A stretch of 64,000 bases of DNA, taken from contig NC_083579.1 of assembly GCF_027579695.1 (NCBI RefSeq), positions 68,725,871 to 68,789,870 of the forward strand, written 5' to 3'. Made by a program: the position numbers and the translations under genes. The notes beneath the pieces are model-generated. The model made no database searches. It worked only from the letters and a program-made list of their open reading frames with translations, and was not told the origin of the DNA. Source of the stretch: Neoarius graeffei. Its lineage: Eukaryota; Chordata; Actinopteri; Siluriformes; Ariidae. Below, in pieces: positions 46,261 through 64,000 of this stretch (within the stretch, counting starts at the first letter, position 1; every line of letters starts with the position of its first letter).

Positions 46261-46263
46261 CAC
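45559..46263 (-). CDS. DDE transposase C-terminal domain, open over 234 codons
   Basis: The frame contains all three catalytic positions of the IS630/Tc1-mariner DDE fold: MDEAGFNL near the start, VVWDNVSFH near residue 92, and FLNPIEEFFSSWWW about 35 residues later. The N-terminal helix-turn-helix part is missing because the element is cut upstream. No internal stop. The product would be a nuclease domain without its DNA-binding domain, so it is probably non-functional, but the frame is unusually well kept among otherwise broken elements here. Confidence 0.8.
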   Translation of the reverse strand: MYIYMDEAGFNLTKRRRRRRNVIGHQAIVGVPGQIGGNVTLCAAISNHGVVHHHANLGPYNTHQLLIFLNHMQDAPLGQQDEHPIDVVVWDNVSFHRALQVREWFDMNQGFINLCLLPCSPFLNPIEEFFSSWWWKVYERQPYTRVNLLQAMELACGDMPSLDTACQGFFFPPIAWPDRMWPVMWMKSCGLTQYGDMMSWLSNALICIFLYFIFTWAYCTQVANAQDFCLCIYM

Positions 46264-46488
46264 TACCTACCGTTCAAAAGTTTGGGGTCACTTTGAAATG
46301 TCCTTATTTTTGAAAGAAAAGCACTGTTCTTTTCAATGAAGATCAATTTAAACTAATCAGAAATCCACTCTATACATTGCTAATGTGGTAAATGACTATT
46401 CTAGCTGCAAATGTCTGGTTTTTGGTGCAATATCTCCATAGGTGTATAGAGGCCCATTTCCAGCAACTCTCACTCCAGTGTTCTAATT
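46261..46488 (+). mobile_element. Tc1-type terminus, left part only
   Basis: CTACCGTTCAAAAGTTTGGG, GTCACTTTGAAATGTCC is a widespread fish Tc1 terminus. It is interrupted at GTGTTCTAATT by the first head of the nested array; the missing half should lie beyond the window if the nesting model holds. Confidence 0.75.
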
Positions 46489-46752
46489 GGGGGCCAAGCA
46501 GCGAAGCTGCGAAGGCACCCATAGTGATTCTACTGTTTCTTCTTCTTCTTCTTCTTATTGGGGGCCAAGCAGCAAAGCTGCGAAGGCACCCATAGGGATT
46601 CTACTGTTTCTTATTATTGGGGGCCAAGCAGCGAAGCTGCGAAGGCACCCATAGTGATTCTATTGTTTCTTCTTCTTATTATTATTATTATTATTATTAT
46701 TGGGGGCCAAGCAGCAAAGCTGCGAAGGCACCCATAGTGATTCTATTGTTTC

Positions 46753-46802
<50 letters not shown>
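46489..46802 (+). repeat. Four stacked element heads with (TTA)n
   Basis: Four heads in a row at 46489, 46560, 46619 and 46702, each ending in TTCTTATT before the next head; the last runs into a (TTA)n tract to 46802. Confidence 0.9.
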
Positions 46803-46805
<3 letters not shown>

Positions 46806-49800
46806 TCCACTTCCGCCTCTGCAAGTCTATGGCAGCCCATAGAACCGTCTGGTAAAAAGTTGTGAAATTTGGCACACTGATTCTAGACACTCTCAACATT
46901 CCTCTCACCAAATTTCAGGCCTCTACCTCAAACCCGTTAGCGCCACCAACAGGTCAAAGTCCCAGGTACATTTCTGCTTGTAACTTTTGAACCGTTGGTC
47001 TGATTTTCAAAAACTTGGTATCCCTGGAATCCTTGGGCCAAGACGAATCCAACGCACCCCATGACGTCATTTCTCGCCCATATATTTTTCCCGCCATTTT
47101 GATTTTTGTGAAAATCAATTAAAATGTTTCAACTCCCTCAATTTTTTACCAATTTCTCCCAAACTTGGAAGATAGCATAATTGGACCAACCTGCACAAAA
47201 GTTATACCCGGTGATTTGAATTTCACAAGCGTTTGGCCGTGGCAGCCAATCAAACTTGGCTGCAAAGATGCGAAACAGGAAGTGTGCTCATTTCTCGGCC
47301 ACCCTTTGGCGTATCTTAACGAAACTTGGTGCCTTTATGCAGCACCCCTCCCGAAAGGGCCCCAAAAAATTTGGAACAAATTGGCTGCTAGGGGGCGCTA
47401 TAACTAGGAAAAATGTCTTTTGGCTCATATCTCATGACTCGTTTTGGCTAGAAACAAAATTCCACTATGGCAGGAATCCTTGGCTCAAGCCGAATCCATC
47501 GCACCCTATGACGTCATATTCTGCCTTGAGGATTTTCCGCCATTTTGAATTTTGTTAAAATCAGTGAAATTCTATGGCAACGCATAGAACCGTCTGACTA
47601 GAGGTTTTTAAACTTGGCACACTGATTCTAGGCTCCCTCAAGGATCTTGTCACCAAATTTCAACTCAGCACCTCAAACTCTCTAGCGCCACCAACAGGTC
47701 AAAGTTGCAAGTACACTTCTGCTTGTTACTTTTGAACCATACGTCTGATCATCAAAATCTTAGTATCACTGGAATACTTGGGTCACCACGAATGCAGGGG
47801 CCCTGTCTCGTCATATTCCACCCAGGAGATTTTCCGCCATTTTGAATTATGTGAAAATCAATTAAAATGCTTCTCCTCCCACAATTTTTGAAGAATTTCT
47901 CCCAAACTTGGTACATGGCAACTGGGGACTAAGCTGCACAAGAAACATACCCGGTTTTTAGAATTTCTTAAGCGTTTGGCCGTGGCAGCCAATCAAATTT
48001 GGCGGGCAGATGCAAGACAGGAAGTGTGCTCATTTCTCGGCGAACCTTTGGCGTATCTTAACGAAACTTGGTGGCTTTATGCAACACCCCTCCCCAAAGG
48101 GCAGCAAAAAATTTGGAACAAATTGGCTGCTAGGGGGCGCTATAACTAGGAAAAATGTCTTTTGGCTCATATCTCATGATGCGTTTTGCCTAGAAACAAA
48201 ATTCCACTATGTCAGGAATCCTTGGCTCAAGCCGAATCCACCGCACCCTATGACGTCATATTCTGCCTTGAGGATTTTCCACCATTTTGAATTTTGTTAA
48301 AATCAATGAAATTCTATGGCAATGCATAGAACCGTCTGACTAGCGGTTTTTAAACTTGGCACACTGATTCTAGGCTCCCTCAAGGATCTTGTCACCAAAT
48401 TTCAACTCAGCACCTCAAAAACTCTAGCGCCACCAACAGGTCAAAATTGCAGGTACATTTATGCTTGTTACTTTTGAACCATACGTCTGATCATCAAATT
48501 CTTAGTGTGGCTGGAATGCTTGGGTCAAAAGGAATCCAATGGGCCCTGTCTCCTCATATTCCACCCAGTAGATTTTCCGCCATTTTGAATTATGTGAAAA
48601 TCAATTAAAATGCTTCTCCTCCCTCAATTTTTGGAAAATTTCTCCCAAACGTGGTACATGGCAACTGGGGCCTAACCTGCACAAGAAATATGCCCGGTTT
48701 TTAGAATTTCTTAAGCGTTTGGCCGTGGCAGCCAATCAAATTTGGCTGGCATATGCAAAACAGGAAGTTTGCTCATTTCTCGGCCACCCTTTGGCGTATC
48801 TTAACGAAACTGGGTGGCTTTATGCAGCACCCCTCCCCAAAGGGCAGCAAAAAATTTGGAACAAATTGGCTGCTAGGGGGCGCTATAACTAGGAAAAATG
48901 TCTTTAGGCTCATATCTCATGATGCGTTTTGGCTAGAAACAAAATTCCACTATGTCAGGAATCCTTGGCTCAAGCCGAACTCATCGCACCCTATGACGTC
49001 ATATTCTGCCTTGAGGATTTTCCGCCATTTTGAATTTTGTTAAAATCAATGAAATTCAATGGCAACGCATAGAACCGTCTGACTAGAGGTTTTTAAACTT
49101 GGCATACTGATTCTAGGCTGCCTCAAGGATCTTGTCACCAAATTTCAACTCAGCACCTCAAAAACTCTAGCGCCACCAACAGGTCAAAGTCGCAGGTACA
49201 TTTCTGCTTGTTACTTTTGAAACATTCGTCTGATCATCAAAATCTTAGTATCTCTAGAATGCTTGGGTCAAAAGGAATCCATCGCGCCCTGTCTCGTCAT
49301 ATTCTACCCAGTAGATTTTCCGGCATTTTGAATTATGTGAAAATCAATTAAAATGCTTCTCCTCCCTCAGTTTTTGACCAATTTCTCCCAAACGTGGTAG
49401 ATAGCAACTCTGAAGGAGCCTACACAAGTATCTTACACGGATTTTTGAATTTCATAAAGGTTTGGCCGTGGCAACCAATCAAATTTGGCTGAGCATATGC
49501 GAACCAGGAAGTGTGCTCATATCTCGGCCGCCCTTTGGCGTATCTAAATGAAACTTGGTGGCATTGTGCAAGACCTCTCCAAAAAGGGCCCCAACAAATT
49601 TGGAACACATTGGCGGCAAGGGGGCGCTATAACAAGGAAAAATGTCTTTTTGCTCATATCTCATGATGCGTTTTGGGTAGAAACAAAATTCCACTATCGC
49701 TGGAATCCTTGGGTCAAGCCGAATCCATCACAACCTATGACGTCATATTCAGACTTGAGGATTTTCCGCCATTTTGAATTTCGTGAAAATCAATTAAAAT

Positions 49801-49963
49801 GCTTCTCCTACCTCAATTTTTGACCAATTTCTCCCAAACTTGGTACATCGCAACTTTGCACTAGGCTGCACAAGGGCATTACATGGCGCAAATTCCTTCT
49901 ACTGGCCTGACATCTCGTCTCATAACCTGCTTGGCCCCCACATTGCTGCTTGCAGCTATATTT
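46803..49963 (+). mobile_element. Array body 1 (four units) and tail
   Basis: CTCF-like motif TGGCTGCTAGGGGGCGCTA at 47382, 48124 and 48867, and a variant (TGGCGGCAAGGGGGCGCTA) at 49611. Near-identical to 55009-58169 at an offset of 8206. Confidence 0.88.
47382..47400 (+). promoter_or_regulatory. CTCF-like core motif (first of 21)
   Basis: TGGCTGCTAGGGGGCGCTA agrees with the vertebrate CTCF core TGGCCACCAGGGGGCGCTA at 16 of 19 literal bases, and at 17 of 19 when degenerate positions are allowed. Binding is predicted from sequence only. Confidence 0.5.
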
Positions 49964-49975
49964 ATTATTATTATT

Positions 49976-52395
49976 CAGTCCACTTCCGCCTCTGCAAGTC
50001 TATGGCAGCCCATAGAACCGTCTGGTAAAAAGTTTTGAAATTTGGCACACTGATTCTAGACAGTCTCAACATTCCTCTCAGCAAATTTCAGGCCTCTGTC
50101 TCAAAGCCTCTAGCGCCACCAACAGGTCAAAGTTGCAGGTACATTTCTGCTTGTAACTTTTGAACCGTTGGTCTGATTTTCAAAACCTTGGTATCCCTGG
50201 AATCCTTGGGCCAAGACGAATCCAACGCACCCCATGACGTCATTTACCGCCCATATACTTTTCCCGCCATTTTGAATTTTGTGAAAATCAATTAAAATGT
50301 TTCAACTCCCTCAATTTTTTACCAATTTCTGCCAAACTTGGAAGATAGCATAATTGGACCAACCTGCACAAAAGTTATACCCGGTGATTTGAATTTCATA
50401 AGCGTTTGGCCGTGGCAGCCAATCAAATTTGGCTGCGCAGATGCAAAACAGGAAGTGCACTCATATCTCGGTGGCCCTTTGGCCTCTCTTGACGAAACTT
50501 GGTGGCATTATGCGAAACCCCTTCCCAAAGGGCCACAAAAAATTTGGCCCAAATTGGACGCTAGGGGGCGCTATAACTAGGAAAAATGTCTTTTGGCTCA
50601 TATCTCATGATGCGTTTTGGCTAGAAAGAAAATTCAACTATATCTGGAATCCATGGGTCAAGACGAATCCATCGCATCCTATGACGTCATATTCTGCCTT
50701 GAGGATTTTCCGCCATTTTGAATTTTGTTAAAATCAATGAAATTCTATGGCAACACATAGAACCATCTGACTAGAGGTTTTTAAACTTGGTAGACTGATT
50801 CTAGGCTGCCTCAAGGATCTTGTCACCAAATTTCAACTCAGCACCTCAAAGTCTCTAGCGCCACCAACAGGTCAAAGTCGCAGGTACATTTCTGCTTGTT
50901 ACTTTTGAACCATACGTCTGATCATCAAAATCTTAGTATCGCTGGAATGCTTGGGTCAGACCGACTACAACGCACCCTGTCTCGTCATATCACACCCAGT
51001 AGATTTTCCGCCATTTTGAATTATGTGAAAATCAATTAAAATGCTTCTCCTCCCTCAATTTTTGAACAATTTCTCCCAAACTTGGTAGCTGGCAACTGGG
51101 GACTAATCTGCACAAGAAACTTACCCGGTAATTAGAATTTCCTAAGCGTTTGGCTGTGGCAGCCAATCAAATTTGGCTTGCAGATGCAAAACAGGAAGTG
51201 TGCTCATTTCTCGGCCACCCTTTGGCCTATCTTAACAAAACTTGGTGGCCTTATGCAGCACCCCTCCCCAAAGGGCAGCAAAAAATTTGGAACAAATTGG
51301 CTGCTAGGGGGCGCTATAACTAGGAAAAATGTCTTTTGGCTCATATCTCATGATGCGTTTTGGGTAGAAACAAAATTCTACTATCTCTGGAATCCATGGG
51401 TCAAGACGAATGCATCGCACCCTATGCCGTCATATTCTGCCTTGAGGATTTTCCGCCATTTTGAAATTTGTTAAAATCAATGAAATTAGATGGCAACCCA
51501 TAGAACCGTATGACTAGAGGTTTTCAAATTTTTCAGACTGATTCTAGGCTCCCTCAAGGGTCTTGTCACCAAATTTCAACTCACCACCTCAAACTCTCTA
51601 GCGCCACCAACAGGTCAAATTCGCAGGTACATTTCTGGTTGTTACTTTTGGAACATACGTCTGATCGTCAAAATCTTAGTCTTTCTGGAATGCTTCCCTC
51701 AAAATGAATCCAACGCGCCCTGTTTCGTCATATTGCACCTGGTAGATTTTCCGCCATTTTGAATTATGTGAAAATCAATTAAAATGCTACTCCTCCCTCA
51801 GTTTTTGACCATTTTCTCCCAAATTTGGTCCATAGCAACTGTGGATGAACCTGCACAAGAGTCTTACACGGATTTTCGAATTTCATAAGCGTTTGGCCGT
51901 GGCAGCCAATCAAATTTGGCTGCACAGACGCGAAAGAGGATGTGTGCTCACATCTCGGCCGCACTTTGGCAGATCTTAACGAAACTTGGTGGCATTATGC
52001 TAGACACAACCAGAAAGGTCCCCAAAAAACTTGGACCAACTTGGCCGCTAGGGGGCGCTATAACTAGCAAAAACGAATTTTGGCTCATATCTCATGATAC
52101 GTTTGGGCTAGAAACAAAATTCCACTAGCTCTGGAATCCTTGGCTCAAGCCGAATCCATCGCACCCTATCACGTCATATTCACCCTTTAGGATTTTCCGC
52201 CATTTTGAATTTTGTAAAAATCAATTAAAATGCTTCTCCTCCCTCAATTTTTCACCAATTTCTCCCAAACTTGGTAGATAGCAACTTTGGACTAAGCTCC
52301 ACAAGGGCATTACCTGTCCCAAGTGCATTCTGCTGGCCTTACGACTCGGCCCATATGCTGCGTGGCCCCCACATTGCTGCTTGCAGCTATATTTA
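49976..52395 (+). mobile_element. Array body 2 (three units) and tail
   Basis: Follows the tail of body 1 after TTATTATTATT with no head of its own, as expected if body 1 was inserted in its (TTA)n. CTCF-like motifs at 50555, 51298 and 52042; the last, TGGCCGCTAGGGGGCGCTA, is the closest to consensus. Confidence 0.88.
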
Positions 52396-52403
52396 TTATT
52401 ATT

Positions 52404-52519
52404 GGGGGCCAAGCAGCAAAGCTGCGAAGGCACCCATAGTGATTCTATTGTTTCTTATTATTATTATTGGGGGCCAAGCAGCGAAGCTGCGAAGGCACCC
52501 ATAGTGATTCTATTGTTTC

Positions 52520-52563
<44 letters not shown>

Positions 52564-54973
52564 TCCACTTCCGCCTCTGCAAGTCTATGGCAGCCCATAG
52601 AACCGTCTGGTAAAAAGTTGTGAAATTTGGCACACTGATTCTAGACACTCTCAACATTCCTCTCAGCAAATTTCAGGCCTCTACCTCAAACCCTCTAGCG
52701 CCACCAACAGCTCAAAGTCGCAGGTACATTTCTGCTTGTAACTTTTGAACCGTTGGTCTGATTTTCAAAAACTTGGTATCCCTGGAATCCTTGGGCCAAG
52801 ACGAATCCAAGGCACCCCATGACGTCATTTTCCGCCATATACTTTTCCCGCCATTTTGAATTTTGTGAAAATCAATTAAAATGTTTCAACTCCCTCAATT
52901 TTTTACCAATTTCTCCCAAACTTGGAAGATAGCATAATTGGACTAACCTGCACAAAAGTTATACCCGGTGATTTGAATTTCACAAGCGTTTGGCCGTGGC
53001 AGCCAATCAAATTTGGCTGCGCAGACGCAAAACAGGAAGTGCACTCATATCTCGGTGGCCCTTTGGCCAATCTTGACGAAACTTGGTGGCATTATGCAAA
53101 ACCCCTTCCCAAAGGGCCACAACAAATTTGGACCAAATTGGACGCTAGGGGGCGCTATAACTAGGAAAAATGCCTTTTGGCTCATATCTCATGATGCGTT
53201 TTGGCTAGAAAGAAAATTCAACTATCTCTGGAATCCTTGGCTCAAGACGAATCCACCGCACCCTATGACGTCATATTCTGCCTTGAGGATTTTCCGCCAT
53301 TTTGAATTATGTTAAAATCAATGAAATTCTATGGCAACGCATAGAACCATCTGACTAGAGGTTTTTAAACTTGGCAAACTGATTCTAGGCTGCCTCAAGG
53401 ATCTTGTCACCAAATTTCAACTCACCACCTCAAACTCTCTAGCGCCACCAACAGGTCAAAGTTGCAGGTACATTTCTGCTTGTTACTTTTGAACCATACG
53501 TCTGATCATCAAAATCTTAGTATCGCTGGAATGCTTGTGTCACAGCGACTCCAACGCGCCCTGTCTCGTCATATTCCACCCAGTAGATTTTCCGCCATTT
53601 TGAATTATGTGAAAATCAATTAAAATGCTTCTCCTCCCTCAATTTTTGAACAATTTCTCCCAAGCTTGGTAGATGGCAACTGGGGACTAATCTGCACAAG
53701 AATCTTACCCGGTAATTAGAATTTCCTAAGCGTTTGGCTGTGGCAGCCAATCAAATTTGGCTTGCAGATGCAAAACAGGAAGTGTGCTCATTTCTCGGCC
53801 ACCCTTTGGCCTATCTTAACGAAACTTGGTGGCTTTATGCAGCACCCCTCCCCAAAGGGCAACAAAAAATTTGGAACAAATTGGCTGCTAGGGGGCGCTA
53901 TAACTAGGAAAAATGTCTTTTGGCTCATATCTCATGATGCGTTTTGGGTAGAAACAAAATTCCACTATCTCTGGAATCCATGGGTCAAGACGAATGCATC
54001 GCACCCTATGCCGTCATATTCTGACTTGAGGATTTTCCGCCATTTTGAATTTTGTTAAAATCAAAGAAATTCGATGGCAACCCATAGAACCGTATGACTA
54101 GAGGTTTTCAAATTTGGCAGACTGATTCTAGGCACCCTCAAGGGTCTTGTGACCAAATTTCAACTCACCACCTCAAACTCTCTAGCGCCACCAACAGGTC
54201 AAATTCGCAGGTACATTTCTGCTTGTTACTTTTGAACCATACGTCTGATCGTCAAAATTTTAGGATCTCTGGAATGCCTTGGTGACATCGAATCCAACGC
54301 GCCCTGTCTCGTCATATTGCACTTGGTAGATTTTCCGCCATTTTGAATTATGTGAAAATCTATTAAAATGCTTCTTCTCCCTCAGTTTTTGACCAATTTC
54401 TCCCAAGCTTGGTACATAGTAACTGTGGACGAAGCTGCACAAGAATCTTACACGGATTTATGAATTTCATAAGCGTTTGGCAGTGGCAGCCAATCAAATT
54501 TGGCTCCTCAGACGCAAAAGAGGATGTGTGCTCACATCTCGGCTGCCCTTTGGCAGATCTTAATGAAACTTGGTGGCCTTTTGCCAGACGCCACCAGAAA
54601 GGTCCCCAAAAAACTTGGAACAACTTGGCAGCTAGGGGGCGCTATAACTAGGAAAAATTACTTTTGGCTCATATCTCATGATCTGTTTGGGCTAGAAACA
54701 AAATTCCACTATCTCTGGAATCCTTGGCTCAAGCCGAATCCATCGCAGCCTATGACGTCATATTTAGCCTTTACGATTTTCCGCCATTTTGAATTTTGAA
54801 AAAATCAATTAAAATGCTTGTCCTCCCTCAATTTTTCACCAATTTCTCCCAAACTTGGTAGATAGCAACTTTGGACTAAGCTGCACAAGGGCATTACCTG
54901 GCCCAAGTGCATTCTGCTGGCCTTCCGACTAGGCTCATATGTTGCTTGGCCCCCACATTGCTGCTTGCAGCTA

Positions 54974-54979
<6 letters not shown>
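52404..54979 (+). mobile_element. Two heads, array body 3 (three units) and tail
   Basis: Heads at 52404 and 52469, (TTA)n, body from 52561. CTCF-like motifs at 53139, 53882 and 54626. Confidence 0.88.
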
Positions 54980-55008
<29 letters not shown>

Positions 55009-55011
<3 letters not shown>

Positions 55012-58000
55012 TCCACTTCCGCCTCTGCAAGTCTATGGCAGCCCATAGAACCGTCTGGTAAAAAGTTGTGAAATTTGGCACACTGATTCTAGACACTCTC
55101 AACATTCCTCTCACCAAATTTCAGGCCTCTACCTCAAACCCGTTAGCGCCACCAACAGGTCAAAGTCCCAGGTACATTTCTGCTTGTAACTTTTGAACCG
55201 TTGGTCTGATTTTCAAAAACTTGGTATCCCTGGAATCCTTGGGCCAAGACGAATCCAACGCACCGCATGACGTCATTTCCCGCCCATATATTTTTCCCGC
55301 CATTTTGATTTTTGTGAAAATCAATTAAAATGTTTCAACTCCCTCAATTTTTTACCAATTTCTCCCAAACTTGGAAGATAGCATAATTGGACCAACCTGC
55401 ACAAAAGTTATACCCGGTGATTTGAATTTCACAAGCGTTTGGCCGTGGCAGCCAATCAAACTTGGCTGCAAAGATGCGAAACAGGAAGTGTGCTCATTTC
55501 TCGGCCACCCTTTGGCGTATCTTAACGAAACTTGGTGCCTTTATGCAGCACCCCTCCCGAAAGGGCCCCAAAAAATTTGGAACAAATTGGCTGCTAGGGG
55601 GCGCTATAACTAGGAAAAATGTCTTTTGGCTCATATCTCATGACTCGTTTTGGCTAGAAACAAAATTCCACTATGGCAGGAATCCTTGGCTCAAGCCGAA
55701 TCCATCGCACCCTATGACGTCATATTCTGCCTTGAAGATTTTCCGCCATTTTGAATTTTGTTAAAATCAGTGAAATTCTATGGCAACGCATAGAACCGTC
55801 TGACTAGAGGTTTTTAAACTTGGCACACTGATTCTAGGCTCCCTCAAGGATCTTGTCACCAAATTTCAACTCAGCACCTCAAACTCTCTAGCGCCACCAA
55901 CAGGTCAAAGTTGCAAGTACACTTCTGCTTGTTACTTTTGAACCATACGTCTGATCATCAAAATCTTAGTATCGCTGGAATACTTGGGTCACCACGAATG
56001 CAGGGGCCCTGTCTCGTCATATTCCACCCAGGAGATTTTCCGCCATTTTGAATTATGTGAAAATCAATTAAAATGCTTCTCCTCCCACAATTTTTGAAGA
56101 ATTTCTCCCAAACTTGGTACATGGCAACTGGGGACTAAGCTGCACAAGAAACATACCCGGATTTTAGAATTTCTTAAGCGTTTGGCCGTGGCAGCCAATC
56201 AAATTTGGCTGGCAGATGCAAGACAGGAAGTGTGCTCATTTCTCGGCGAACCTTTGGCGTATCTTAACGAAACTTGGTGGCTTTATGCAACACCCCTCCC
56301 CAAAGGGCAGCAAAAAATTTGGAACAAATTGGCTGCTAGGGGGCGCTATAACTAGGAAAAATGTCTTTTGGCTCATATCTCATGATGCGTTTTGCCTAGA
56401 AACAAAATTCCACTATGTCAGGAATCCTTGGCTCAAGCCGAATCCACCGCACCCTATGACGTCATATTCTGCCTTGAGGATTTTCCACCATTTTGAATTT
56501 TGTTAAAATCAATGAAATTCTATGGCAATGCATAGAACCGTCTGACTAGAGGTTTTTAAACTTGGCACACTGATTCTAGGCTCCCTCAAGGATCTTGTCA
56601 CCAAATTTCAACTCAGCACCTCAAAAACTCTAGCGCCACCAACAGGTCAAAATTGCAGGTACATTTCTGCTTGTTACTTTTGAACCATACGTCTGATCAT
56701 CAAATTCTTAGTGTGGCTGGAATGCTTGGGTCAAAAGGAATCCAATGGGCCCTGTCTCCTCATATTCCACCCAGTAGATTTTCCGCCATTTTGAATTATG
56801 TGAAAATCAATTAAAATGCTTCTCCTCCCTCAATTTTTGGAAAATTTCTCCCAAACGTGGTACATGGCAACTGGGGCCTAAGCTGCACAAGAAATATGCC
56901 CGGTTTTTAGAATTTCTTAAGCGTTTGGCCGTGGCAGTCAATCAAATTTGGCTGGCATATGCAAAACAGGAAGTTTGCTCATTTCTCGGCCACCCTTTGG
57001 CGTATCTTAACGAAACTGGGTGGCTTTATGCAGCACCCCTCCCCAAAGGGCAGCAAAAAATTTGGAACAAATTGGCTGCTAGGGGGCGCTATAACTAGGA
57101 AAAATGTCTTTAGGCTCATATCTCATGATGCGTTTTGGCTAGAAACAAAATTCCACTATGTCAGGAATCCTTGGCTCAAGCCGAACTCATCGCACCCTAT
57201 GACGTCATATTCTGCCTTGAGGATTTTCCGACATTTTGAATTTTGTTAAAATCAATGAAATTCAATGGCAACGCATAGAACCGTCTGACTAGAGGTTTTT
57301 AAACTTGGCATACTGATTCTAGGCTGCCTCAAGGATCTTGTCACCAAATTTCAACTCAGCACCTCAAAAACTCTAGCGCCACCAACAGGTCAAAGTCGCA
57401 GGTACATTTCTGCTTGTTACTTTTGAAACATTCGTCTGATCATCAAAATCTTAGTATCTCTAGAATGCTTGGGTCAAAAGGAATCCATCGCGCCCTGTCT
57501 CGTCATATTCTACCCAGTAGATTTTCCGGCATTTTGAATTATGTGAAAATCAATTAAAATGCTTCTCCTCCCTCAGTTTTTGACCAATTTCTCCCAAACG
57601 TGGTAGATAGCAACTCTGGAGGAGCCTACACAAGTATCTTACACGGATTTTTGAATTTCATAAACGTTTGGCCGTGGCAACCAATCAAATTTGGCTGAGC
57701 ATATGCGAACCAGGAAGTGTGCTCATATCTCGGCCGCCCTTTGGCGTATCTAAATGAAACTTGGTGGCATTGTGCAAGACCTCTCCAAAAAGGGCCCCAA
57801 CAAATTTGGAACACATTGGCGGCAAGGGGGCGCTATAACAAGGAAAAATGTCTTTTTGCTCATATCTCATGATGCGTTTTGGGTAGAAACAAAATTCCAC
57901 TATCGCTGGAATCCTTGGGTCAAGCCGAATCCATCACAACCTATGACGTCATATTCAGACTTGAGGATTTTCCGCCATTTTGAATTTCGTGAAAATCAAT

Positions 58001-58169
58001 TAAAATGCTTCTCCTACCTCAATTTTTGACCAATTTCTCCCAAACTTGGTACATCGCAACTTTGCACTAGGCTGCACAAGGGCATTACATGGCGCAAATT
58101 CCTTCTACTGGCCTGACATCTCGTCTCATATGCTGCTTGGCCCCCACATTGCTGCTTGCAGCTATATTT
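55009..58169 (+). mobile_element. Array body 4 (four units) and tail
   Basis: Headless, following the tail of body 3 and (TTA)n. CTCF-like motifs at 55588, 56330, 57073 and 57817. Almost base-for-base the same as body 1. Confidence 0.88.
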
Positions 58170-59637
58170 GGGGGCCAAGCAGCGAAGCTGCGAAGGCACC
58201 CATAGTGATTCTATTGTTTCTTCTTATTATTATTCAGTCCACTTCCGCCTCTGCAAGTCTATGGCAGCCCATAGAACCGTCTGGTAAAAAGTTGTGAAAT
58301 TTTGCACACTGATTCTAGACAGTCTCAACATTACTCTCAGCAAATTTCAGGCCTCTACCTCAAACCCTCTAGCGCCACCAACAGCTCAAATTCGCAGGTA
58401 CATTTCTGCTTGTAACTTTTGAACCGTTGGTCCGATTTTCAAAAACTTGGTATCCCTGGAATCCTTGGGCCAAGACGAATCCAACGCACCCTATGACGTC
58501 ATTTTCCGCCCATATAGTTTTCCCGCCATTTTGAATTTTGTGAAAATCAATTAAAATGCTTCAACTCCCTCAATTTTTGACCAATTTCTCCCAAACTTGG
58601 AAGATAGCATAATTGGACCAACCTGCACAAAAGTTATACCCAGTGTTTTGAATTTCAAAAGCGTTTGGCCGTGGCAGCCAATCAAATTTGGCTGCACAGA
58701 TGCAAAACAGGAAGTGCACTCATATCTCGGCGGCCCTTTGGGCTATCTTGACAAAACTTGGTGGGCTTATGCCCCACCCATCCACAAAGGCCCCCCAAAA
58801 ATTTGGAACATATTGGCAGCTAGGGGGCGCTATAACTAGGAAAAATGTCTTTTGGCTCATATCTCATGATGCGTTTTGGGTAGAAACAAAATTCAACTAT
58901 CTCTGGAATGCATGGTTCAAGCAGAATCCATCGCACCATATCACGTCATATTCTGCCTTGAGGATTTTCCGACATTTTGAATTTTGTTAAAATCAATGAA
59001 ATTCTATGGCAACCCATAGAACCATCTGACGAGAGGTTGAGAAATTTGGCACACTGATTCTAGGCTGCCTCAAGGTTCTTGTCAGCAAATTTCAGCTCAC
59101 CACCTCAAACTCTCTAGCGCCACAAACAGGTCAAAGTTGGAAGTACATTTCTGCTTGTTACTTTTGAATCGTATGGCTGATTGTCAAAATCTTAGTATCG
59201 CTGGAATCCATCGGTCAAACCGAATCCAACGCACCCTATGTCGTCATATTGCACCTGGTAGATTTTCCGCCATTTTTAATTTTGTTAAAATCATTTAAAT
59301 TGCTACTCCTCCCTCAATTTTTGACCAAATTTGCCCAGACTAGGTTGATACCATCATTGGACCAAGCCGCACAAAATTTATCCTCAGTGTTTTGAAATTT
59401 TAAAACTGTTTGGCCGCAGCAGCCAATGAAATGCAGCTGCGAAGACGTCAAACAGGAAGTGAGCTCATATCTCGGCAGCCCTTTGATGTTTCTTAACCAA
59501 TCTTGTTGGGATTATGCCACACCCCTCCCCAAGGGCCCCTACCAAATTTGGTGCACATTGGCCATAGGGGGCGCTATAACTATACAAAATATGTTTTGGC
59601 TCATATGTCATTGAGCTCATATCTCAGCAGTATTTTA

Positions 59638-59695
<58 letters not shown>

Positions 59696-59915
59696 TGTAC
59701 ACTTGAAGTAATTTCAGCCATCACAGTCAATCGAATTTGATGGTGAAGCCGCTGAACAGCAAATTGTCTTGTATCTCAGTCAAACGATGGTATAGTGACA
59801 TGAAACTTCTTGTGGGTGCTCGTGACCATCTGTCTGGCCCAAATGCATTCTGCGAGCCTGACGAGTAGGCTCATAGACTGCTTGGCCCCCACATTGCTGC
59901 TTGCAGCTATATTTA
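58170..59915 (+). mobile_element. Complete short element (two units)
   Basis: One head, short (TTA)n, body from 58235, CTCF-like motifs at 58814 and 59558, and tail. A (CA)n tract lies at 59640-59692. At 1,746 bp it is one of the two uninterrupted copies. Confidence 0.88.
59640..59692. repeat. (CA)n microsatellite
   Basis: Uninterrupted CA repeat within the 3' part of the element at 58170-59915. Confidence 0.97.
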
Positions 59916-59966
59916 GGGGCCAAGCAGCGAAGCTGGCGAAGGCCCCTAATGAGTTTGTCGGTTTTC

Positions 59967-59997
<31 letters not shown>

Positions 59998-61635
59998 ACT
60001 TTCTTCTCCTATGGGATGTCAATGGCAGCCCATAGAACCACACATAGGAAAATGCTCAAATTTGGCACACACATTCTAGACAGTCTCAGCATTCCCCACA
60101 ACAATTTTTAGGTCCCCACCCCCAACCCTCTAGCGCCACCAGCAGGTCAAAGTTGCAGGTACATTTCTGCTTGTAACTTTTGAACCATTGGTCCGATTTT
60201 CAAAAACTTGGTATCCCTGGAATCCTTGGGTCAAGACGAATCCAAAGCACCCCATGACGTCATTTTCCGCCCATATAGTTTTCCCGCCATTTTGAATTTT
60301 GTGAAAATCAATTAAAATGCTTCTCCTCCCTCAATTTTGGACCAATTTCTCCCAAACTTGGTAGATGGCAACTTTGGACTAAGCTCCACAAGAAACTTAC
60401 CCGGTTTTTAGAATTTCATAAGCGTTTGGCCGTGGCAGCCAATCAAAATTGGAGGCGCAGACGCCAAACAGGAAGTGTGCTCATATTTCGGCTGCCCTTT
60501 GGCGTATCTTAACGAAACTTGGTGGGTTTATGCCCCACCCCTCCATGAAGGACCCCAAAGAATTTGGAACAAATTGGCTGCTAGGGGGCGCTATAACTAG
60601 GAAAAATGTCTTTTGGCTCATATCTCATGATGCGTTTTGGCTAGAAACAAAATTCCACTGCCTATGGAATCCTTGGGTCAAGACGAATCTATCGCACCCT
60701 ATGACGTCATATTCTGCCTTGAGGATTTTCCGCCATTTTGAATTTTGTTAAAATCAATGAAATTCTATGGAAACCCATAGAACCGTCTGACAACAGGTTT
60801 TCAAATTTGGCACACTGATTCTAGGCTGGCTCAAGGTTCTTGTCAGCAAATTTCAACTCACCACCTCAAACTCTCTAGCGCCAACAACAGGCCAAAGTTG
60901 CATGTACATTTCTGCTTGTTACTTTTGAATCGTATGTCTGATCGTCAAAATCTGTGTATCGCTGGAATCCTTGGGTCAAAACGAATCCAACACATCCTAT
61001 GCCGTCATATTCCGCCTTGTATATTTTCCGCCATTTTGAATTATGTGAAAATCAATTAAAATGCTTCTCCTCCCTCAATTTTTGACCAATTCCTTCCAAA
61101 CTTGGTAGATGGCAACGTTGCACTAAGCTGCACAAAAAACTTACCCGGTTTTTCGAATTTCATAAGCGTTTGGCCGTGGCTGCCAATCAAACTTGGATGT
61201 GCAGACGCGAAACAGGACGTGTGCTCATATCTCGGCAGCCCTTTGATCTTTCTTAACCAAACTTGGTGGGATTATGCCCCACCCCTCCATAAGTGCCCAT
61301 ACCACATTTGGTGCACTTTGGCCATTAGGGGGCGCTATAACTTTCCAAAATGTGTTTTGGCTCATATATAATTGAGCTCATATCTCAGCAGTCTTTTAGC
61401 ACACACACACACACACACACCTAGTACACTTGAAGTAATTTCAGCCATCACAGTCAATCGAATTTGACGGTGAAGCCGTGCATGCCTCTAACCATCTGGT
61501 TGGAGGTACATTTCTGCTTGTAAACACTTCCTGTGCGTGCCTATGACCGTCTGCCTGGTCAGTTCTTTCTGTTGCCATGGCAACTTAGGCTGGGTCATCC
61601 TGCTTGGCCCCGCATTGCTGCTTGCAGCTATATTT
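59916..61635 (+). mobile_element. Complete short element, diverged subtype (two units)
   Basis: The head differs (GGGGCCAAGCAGCGAAGCTG, then GCGAAGGCCCC) and the body begins CAACTTTCTTC. CTCF-like motifs at 60575 and 61319. Short (CA)n at about 61401-61420. Confidence 0.87.
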
Positions 61636-61641
61636 ATTATT

Positions 61642-61822
61642 GGGGGCCAAGCAGCGAAGCTGCGAAGGCACCCATAGTGATTCTACTGTTTCTTATTATT
61701 GGGGGCCAAGCAGCGAAGCTGCGAAGGCACCCATAGTGATTCTACTGTTTCTTATTATTATTATTATTGGGGGCCAAGCAGCAAAGCTGCGAAGGCACCC
61801 ATAGTGATTCTATTGTTTCTTC

Positions 61823-61872
<50 letters not shown>

Positions 61873-64000
61873 TCCACTTCCGCCTCTGCAAGTCTATGGC
61901 AGCCCATAGAACCGTCTGGTAAAAAGTTGTGAAATTTGGCACACTGATTCTAGACAATCTCAACATTCCTCTCACCAAATTTCAGGCCTCTACCTCAAAC
62001 CCGTTAGCGCCACCAACAGGTCAAAGTCCCAGGTACATTTCTGCTTGTAACTTTTGAACCGTTGGTCTGATTTTCAAAAACTTGGTATCCCTGGAATCCT
62101 TGGGCCAAGACGAATCCAACGCACCCCATGACGTCATTTCCCGCCCATATATTTTTCCCGCCATTTTGAATTTTGTGAAAATCAATTAAAATGTTTCAAC
62201 TCCCTCAATTTTTTACCAATTTCTCCCAAACTTGGAAGATAGCATAATTGGACCAACCTGCACAAAAGTTATACCCGGTGATTTGAATTTCACAAGCGTT
62301 TGGCCGTGGCAGCCAATCAAACTTGGCTGCAAAGATGCGAAACAGGAAGTGTGCTCATTTCTCGGCCACCCTTTGGCGTATCTTAACGAAACTTGGTGGC
62401 TTTATGCAGCACCCCTCCCGAAAGGGCCCCAAAAAATTTGGAACAAATTGGCTGCTAGGGGGCGCTATAACTAGGAAAAATGTCTTTTGGGTCATATCTC
62501 ATGACTCGTTTTGGCTAGAAACAAAATTCCACTATGGCAGGAATCCTTGGCTCAAGACGAATCCATCGCACCCTATGACGTCATATTCTGCCTTGAGGAT
62601 TTTCCGCCATTTTGAATTTTGTTAAAATCAGTGAAATTCTATGGCAACGCATAGAACCGTTTGACTAGAGGTTTTTAAACTTGGCAAACTGATTCTAGGC
62701 TCCCTCAAGGATCTTGTCACCAAATTTCAACTCAGCACCTCAAACTCTCTAGCGCCACCAACAGGTCAAAGTTGCAAGTACACTTCTGCTTGTTACTTTT
62801 GAACCATACGACTGATCATCAAAATCTTAGTATCGCTGGAATACTTGGGTCACCACGAATCCAGGGGCCCTGTCTCGTCATATTCCACCCAGGAGATTTT
62901 CCGCCATTTTGAATTATGTGAAAATCAATTAAAATGCTTCTCCTCCCACAATTTTTGAAGAATTTCTCCCAAACTTGGTACATGGCAACTGGGGACTAAG
63001 CTGCACAAGAAACATACCCGGTTTTTAGAATTTCTTAAGCGTTTGGCCGTGGCAGCCAATCAAATTTGGCTGGCAGATGCAAGACAGGAAGTGTGCTCAT
63101 TTCTCGGCGAACCTTTGGCGTATCTTAACGAAACTTGGTGGCTTTATGCAACACCCCTCCCCAAAGGGCAGCAAAAAATTTGGAACAAATTGGCTGCTAG
63201 GGGGCGCTATAACTAGGAAAAATGTCTTTTGGCTCATATCTCATGATGCGTTTTGCCTAGAAACAAAATTCCACTATGTCAGGAATCCTTGGCTCAAGCC
63301 GAATCCACCGCACCCTATGACGTCATATTCTGCCTTGAGGATTTTCCACAATTTTGAATTTTGTTAAAATCAATGAAATTCTATGGCAATGCATAGAACC
63401 GTCTGACTAGAGGTTTTTAAACTTGGCCCACTGATTCTAGGCTGCCTCAAGGATCTTGTCACCAAATTTCAACTCAGCACCTCAAACTCTCTAGCGCCAC
63501 CAACAGGTCAAAATTGCAGGTACATTTCTGCTTGTTACTTTTGAACCATACGTCTGATCATCAAATTCTTAGTGTGGCTGGAATGCTTGGGTCAAAAGGA
63601 ATCCAATGGGCCCTGTCTCCTCATATTCCACCCAGTAGATTTTCCGCCATTTTGAATTATGTGAAAATCAATTAAAATGCTTCTCCTCCCTCAATTTTTG
63701 GAAAATTTCTCCCAATCGTGGTACATGGCAACTGGGGCCTAAGCTGCACAAGAAATATGCCCGGTTTTTAGAATTTCTTAAGCGTTTGGCCGTGGCAGCC
63801 AATCAAATTTGGCTGGCATATGCAAAACAGGAAGTTTGCTCATTTCTCGGCCACCCTTTGGCGTATCTTAACGAAACTGGGTGGCTTTATGCAGCACCCC
63901 TCCCCAAAGGGCAGCAAAAAATTTGGACCAAATTGGCTGCTAGGGGGCGCTATAACTAGGAAAAATGTCTTTAGGCTCATATCTCATGATGCGTTTTGGC
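61642..64000 (+). mobile_element. Three heads and array body 7 (at least three units), cut by window
   Basis: Heads at 61642, 61701 and 61769; body from 61870. CTCF-like motifs at 62449, 63191 and 63934. Matches body 4 at an offset of 6861. Confidence 0.88.

Follow-up and report, generated by a model that had tools for sequence, protein, structure and literature searches.

An array of heads, bodies and tails at positions 46489–64000 of a 64,000-nt stretch of the Neoarius graeffei genome (contig NC_083579.1 of assembly GCF_027579695.1, positions 68,725,871–68,789,870, forward strand; the whole stretch is called the window here, and coordinates of array parts are on its scale) was most likely built by nested insertion of one transposable element into the TTA tract that the element itself carries, and we put the probability of this at roughly 0.86. 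Judged by its anatomy, the element is a non-autonomous Helentron of the HINE/DINE-1 type. All parts of the array are on the plus strand; counting gives 11 heads, 7 body starts and 6 tails, arranged as H H H H B T B T H H B T B T H B T h B T H H H B (H, head; h, divergent head; B, body; T, tail). A recount agrees exactly with the order given in the first-pass annotation, which had read heads and tails as opening and closing brackets. Its further claims, that five copies are still open at the window edge and that every body without an adjacent head follows a tail and a TTA-type repeat, hold as well: 11 heads stand against 6 tails, and both headless bodies (bodies 2 and 4; Table 1) are found in that context.

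Ten of the heads, all of the alpha/beta/gamma type defined below, match a 28-base pattern with 0 mismatches (chance expectation 0.00), and the eleventh, at 59914, is divergent. Five of the tails lie within 3 mismatches of the tail pattern, the sixth being that at 61604–61635. A chance origin of the head and tail matches was rejected, with 0.00 matches of either expected in shuffles.

The head is ∼51 bases long, starts with (T)GGGGGCCAAGCAGC and leads into a (TTC)a(TTA)b tract, the body consists of ∼745-base subrepeats, and the tail end reads CTGCTTGGCCCCC...ATTGCTGCTTGCAGCTATATTT. The mobile unit is taken to run from head to tail, on the strength of a lone copy (locus L029), in which one head, one body and one tail sit within unrelated flanks. 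Canonical Helitrons have 5' TC and 3' CTRR ends and an A|T target; this assignment was rejected, the element here having the ends TGGGGG or TAGGGG and CTATATT(T). A subterminal inverted repeat pairs GGGGGCCAAGCAG at the 5' terminus with CTGCTTGGCCCCC, which lies 24 bases in from the 3' terminus, a 5' inverted repeat overlaps the subterminal repeat, the palindrome GCTGCTTGCAGC ends 7 bases before the tail end, and both a microsatellite and tandem repeats are present, as the (TTA)n after the head and the central subrepeats. All of these are HINE/DINE-1 features, the available text of PMC4067079 giving those of HINEs (from the mite Metaseiulus) together with the TT preference of DINE-1. Folded as DNA, the head reaches −11.7 kcal/mol (z −3.11; 2 of 200 shuffles as good), and the fold energy of the 3' palindrome is ordinary (z +0.95; 168 of 200 shuffles as good). 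As read from the filled sites, the flanks of three copies (at C3:23.18 Mb, C3:48.47 Mb and C2:66.90 Mb) are compatible with insertion between two T's (T|T).

Matching of parted heads with headless bodies

Heads were sorted at two sites into alpha (A,T), beta (G,T) and gamma (C at the second site), the divergent head forming a fourth class, delta, and body starts were sorted into the identical four classes. Adjacent heads and bodies agree in class in 32 of 36 pairs and none conflicts; in the other four, one member of the pair received no class from the script. The figure serves to describe the linkage rather than to test it independently. This linkage is what allows parted heads and headless bodies to be matched. 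With heads in lower case and bodies in capitals, the window array reads (g (g (b (a A ) B ) (a (b B ) A ) (b B ) (d D ) (g (g (a A ... and the two headless bodies agree with their proposed partners, body 2 with head 3 (both beta) and body 4 with head 5 (both alpha), which in each case is the innermost open head.

Ten headless bodies are testable in this way (two in the window, four on C3, two on C2, one on C29 and one at C11:65.15 Mb), and nine of them match the class of the innermost open head. Headless bodies that have masked or unread DNA, or a stretch end, directly upstream stand outside this set: one at 71846 in the window extension, two at C1:71.98 Mb, two on C29, one on C8, one each in loci L030 and L034, and those in L047 and L048.

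Two arrays elsewhere in the genome were covered with both flanks, as slices and pattern positions. At C3:48470131–48485012, five heads (b b a b b) are followed by body 1, by four tail-(TTA)-body joints of classes b, a, b and b, and by a fifth tail with T-rich DNA beyond it, giving 5 heads, 5 bodies and 5 tails. The last head adjoins body 1, and the outer heads b b a b fit the headless bodies b a b b in mirror order at four of four positions, whereas a parallel order fails at two. Body 1, left unclassified by the script, reads as beta with one change; the joints are 3.17 kb apart, approximately one body length, and the flanks, as far as read, gave no family match. The array at C2:66901032–66907736 has three delta heads, three delta body starts and three tails within unrelated flanks, with tail–body joints at 66903640 and 66906038 and unrelated DNA after the last tail. 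All pairs are delta here, so it is the counts and the tract sums that carry weight.

Tract sums add the part of a split tract that stays with the head to the part before the headless body. Intact alpha tracts measure 50 bases in five of six cases and 44 in one, and the split alpha tracts give 38+12=50 on C3 and 14+30=44 in the window. For delta on C2, the inner tract, which is intact, measures 29 bases; the split tracts give 19+9=28 and 4+25=29, and if heads and bodies were paired in parallel the sums would be 13 and 44. Beta tracts range from 14 to 53 bases, and the beta sums (35, 53 and 17 on C3, 44 in the window) are therefore permissible without being informative. The self-insertion into (TTA)n that the first-pass annotation had proposed is thus supported by class matching and tract sums in the window, and by balance too in the C3 and C2 arrays. 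Among the chromosome C1 matches listed, 68 of 70 joints retain 12 or more bases of tract before an alpha, beta or gamma body, a hint that the last (ATT)4 belongs to the body or that the choice of site is constrained.

Occurrence in the genome and flanks of the window array

Genome-wide counts were made with exact patterns on sequence containing N stretches, and reversed-pattern controls gave 0. The pattern for alpha/beta/gamma heads recovers 79 of 86 sampled heads and the tail 23-mer 31 of 34 sampled tails; these recall figures apply to those two patterns, delta heads having been sought with a separate one, and with the head patterns being longer, heads are likely undercounted. The 23-mer replaced an earlier tail pattern (861 genome matches) because that pattern is present in only 18 of the 34 sampled tails. 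Exact heads number 2380 (1519 alpha/beta/gamma and 861 delta) and exact tails 2245, a ratio of 1.06. The sampled loci were picked via head matches and therefore over-represent head–head joints (70 vs 9 tail–body), and it was for this reason that joints were counted genome-wide; the joint totals discussed below cover head–head joints among alpha/beta/gamma heads and those with an outer delta head, and are to that extent incomplete. A head pattern has no match in viral_contigs.

The region C1:90–93.5 Mb is dense with these arrays, and the first-listed 100 alpha/beta/gamma and 100 delta heads are all on C1 and all on the minus strand. One C1 locus (L006) holds 26 heads in 3 kb, nine of them delta heads in a row, to which pattern positions add ∼7 more. 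Copies within arrays are nearly all in one orientation, the exceptions being L034 and L005, in the latter of which a minus-strand head lies beside a plus-strand body start (1775–1895), an orientation break inside the array. Body 4 of the window differs from body 1, tails included, at 15 of 3161 bases. Bodies on different chromosomes, at C11:65.15 Mb (position 12120 of L004+L037+L038) and on C8 (position 4584 of L025), are identical over 700 bases, which implies that the family moved or exchanged recently. The lone copy is old, with 10.4% private substitutions. In the window, tail 4 is joined directly to head 7 (58137–58220), and 13 of the 28 tail–head joints in the classified set lack a spacer; new heads often begin right where the T-rich end of an earlier tail stops, and arrays may in this second way also grow end to end.

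To the right, the sequence was extended by 100 kb beyond the window, with N at 64001–69000, 76501–81500 and 86501–99000 (window scale). The array reaches to at least 86.5 kb, its closing part lying partly in N, and no match to the family was found at 99001–164000. The first headless body visible past the N stretch is gamma, as are the open heads 1, 2, 9 and 10, which is consistent with these heads but, because of the mask, not a strict test. On the left, a Tc1-type terminus, described as half missing in the first-pass annotation, halts at the first head. A second copy of it (142306–142523 in extended coordinates, minus strand, 96 kb to the right; 99.5% over 218 bases) keeps the match as far as that point and enters other sequence beyond it, which makes the continuation of the Tc1 sequence past the head ambiguous. 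Queries with Tc1 fragments gave no match just right of the N stretch; what they did match was a weak plus-strand site at 136344 and minus-strand sites at ∼141.2 and 142.5 kb. The Tc1-type copy that carries this second terminus lies at ∼141237–142523 (minus), 77–79 kb right of the window end, with a further Tc1 fragment matching ∼1 kb on.

Table 1. Parts of the array and its left flank in the window
Feature	Position	Strand	Basis
Tc1-type terminus, stops at outermost head; probable target of outermost insertion	46261–46488	+	sequence; second copy
Head 1, gamma, open at window edge	46489–46539	+	
Head 2, gamma, open at window edge	46560–46610	+	
Head 3, beta; pairs with headless body at 49976	46619–46669	+	class; tract 32+12=44
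Head 4, alpha, with own (TTA)n and body	46702–46752	+	
Body 1, alpha, ∼745-base subrepeats	46803–49930	+	
Tail 1	49931–49963	+	
Body 2, beta, no adjacent head (after tail and (ATT)4)	49976–52361	+	
Tail 2	52363–52394	+	
Head 5, alpha; pairs with headless body at 55009	52404–52454	+	class; tract 14+30=44
Head 6, beta	52469–52519	+	
Body 3, beta	52561–54945	+	
Tail 3	54946–54978	+	
Body 4, alpha, no adjacent head (after tail and (ATT)10)	55009–58136	+	
Tail 4, abuts head 7	58137–58169	+	
Head 7, beta	58170–58220	+	
Body 5, beta, short subtype with (CA)n	58235–59881	+	
Tail 5	59882–59914	+	
Head 8, delta; first base is last base of tail 5	59914–59966	+	
Body 6, delta	59996–61600	+	
Tail 6	61604–61635	+	
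Head 9, gamma, open	61642–61692	+	
Head 10, gamma, open	61701–61751	+	
Head 11, alpha, open	61769–61819	+	
Body 7, alpha, runs past window end	61870–64000	+	

Counter-evidence and alternative explanations

Several observations weigh against nested insertion. Head–head joints and tail–body joints are only roughly equal in number, both for alpha/beta/gamma (609 vs 461) and for delta (291 with an outer delta head vs 336 delta tail–body joints). At C11:65.15 Mb, the single mismatch among the ten testable bodies, heads in the order beta-alpha-beta-beta precede a single beta body; next comes a delta unit, and the headless body after it is gamma although beta was due. A search of this locus for a hidden head or tail found none, and it behaves as if one tail had closed four heads, which an outer-head-to-first-tail move or a deletion would fit. 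The class rules were fixed after head and body sequences had been inspected, and only the pairs fetched later are independent. The unread body interiors of the C3 and C2 arrays may hide an extra complete unit, though each 3.17-kb step on C3 has about the length of a single body. For the window's outermost insertion the fit to T|T is not clear, the other Tc1 copy reading AAT and then GG.

The ages of the copies belong here too. Private substitutions, scored over up to 700 body bases, do not rank inner against outer copies (0.00–0.43% in the alpha class; 0.14, 0.00, 0.14 and 0.14% for window bodies 1, 2, 3 and 4), and the dating of inner against outer bodies that the first-pass annotation had proposed ran without separation, speaking neither for nor against nesting. 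In delta tail–body joints the remaining tract is exactly 6 bases in 62 of 100 among the matches listed, unlike what uniform insertion would give; this mode points to a site preference or else to delta units having been copied in tandem. The arrays on C29 (L019) and C8 (L024) share eight heads and seven spacers of equal lengths, and over 929 alignment columns upstream they show 1 mismatch and one gap, but they differ in their inner heads. C29 also contains a perfect repeat, at least 1137 bases long, of a segment made up of three heads and a body. Multi-head runs are therefore also copied as blocks; at the inner end the C29 and C8 stacks differ as if new insertions had continued at the inner tract after the duplication.

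Some of these observations would also arise if the array were a plain tandem repeat that unequal exchange had reshaped, TTA tracts inside copies recombining with those between copies and heads or body–tail pieces being dropped. TTA is common to all tracts, tail–head joints are common (the 28 mentioned above, with or without a spacer), C29 and C8 share a head run, the 6-base remainder recurs in delta joints, and the mismatch at C11:65.15 Mb fits such a deletion. However, unequal exchange does not predict matching to the innermost head, balance of heads and tails or tract sums, all of which are found in the C3 and C2 arrays, with the matching and the sums holding in the window as well, and we regard it as improbable. 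Still less probable is that head and TTA together form a minisatellite growing by slippage, in which the extra heads are local duplications without lost bodies. The run of 26 heads in L006, with its nine consecutive delta heads, and the surplus of alpha/beta/gamma head–head over tail–body joints are in line with slippage, but exact heads and tails differ by only 6% genome-wide, neighbouring heads are often of different subfamilies (d g g g b a; g g b a), and the five-head run on C3 has five bodies. Rolling-circle read-through, inserting head-to-tail concatemers as one block, is the least credible of the three, since concatemers would give spacerless tail–head joints but neither head–head nor tail–body joints, and the spacerless joint in the window separates different subfamilies (body 4 alpha, body 5 beta).

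Proposed mechanism and relation to known elements

Under nested insertion, a non-autonomous Helentron would insert between two T's. The sense strand of a TTA tract would offer a row of TT sites whereas the other strand (TAA) has none, making the tract a target in one orientation only; the shared orientation of copies in an array would be explained in this way. A new copy landing in a resident tract would part the old head from the old body and, as each new copy brings a fresh tract inside, the landing pad would be renewed at every step, the outcome being a balanced nesting of the form head-head-...-body-tail-(TTA)-body-tail. Mobilisation would presumably be in trans, by a Helentron Rep/helicase, and the TT preference of DINE-1 suggests that it is the choice of TT that causes self-targeting. 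A second process, the copying of multi-head blocks by segmental exchange or by transposition that starts at an outer head and ends at the first tail, would leave head runs that are not strictly balanced; transposition of the latter kind may turn stacks into mobile multi-headed elements. The odds seem about even that the landing pad is self-renewing in the full sense, one arrival seeding the absorption of copies in one orientation and the head stack being an ordered record of subfamily succession.

Coates and colleagues in 2010 reportedly described a lepidopteran Helitron-like superfamily disrupting (GAAA)n, which, likened by title only, resembles the present element in interrupting microsatellites. 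HINEs of the mite Metaseiulus likewise carry subterminal inverted repeats, which lie close to the 5' terminus but deeper inside at the 3' terminus, and a palindrome towards the 3' terminus; some copies contain microsatellites or tandem repeats, and their insertion is into T-rich targets without target duplication. They differ in their 3' distances (38–60 and 8–35 there vs 24 and 7 here), and repeated insertion into their own internal microsatellite is not described in the available text (PMC4067079). Drosophila DINE-1/INE-1 shares a 5' inverted repeat with its first half inside the subterminal repeat, a microsatellite, a 3' stem-loop and abundance in repeat-rich regions, and its TT preference would fit the flanks of the three insertions above; the host is different, the likeness is one of anatomy and not of sequence, and the same portion of text describes no balanced nesting (PMC4067079). 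At oyster Helitron/Helentron loci, Helentron parts are truncated, tandemised and inserted in one another, but these loci are, in the available text, irregular mosaics and show no ordered nesting with matching subfamilies (PMC12628747, PMC8268682). No title naming balanced self-nesting in an element's own microsatellite was found in the open-access literature searched. As far as these searches reach, the class of element is already known and ordered self-nesting in a carried microsatellite is new.

Self-targeting to an internal microsatellite provides a route from an interspersed element to large satellite-like arrays without tandem duplication. The split-tract sum rule is an internal check on both assembly and slippage, and every nested insertion sits in a known short target, which makes these arrays a test bed for Helentron target choice. 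If nested insertion is true, the nesting order would give relative insertion times without a clock, a stratigraphy of transposon activity.

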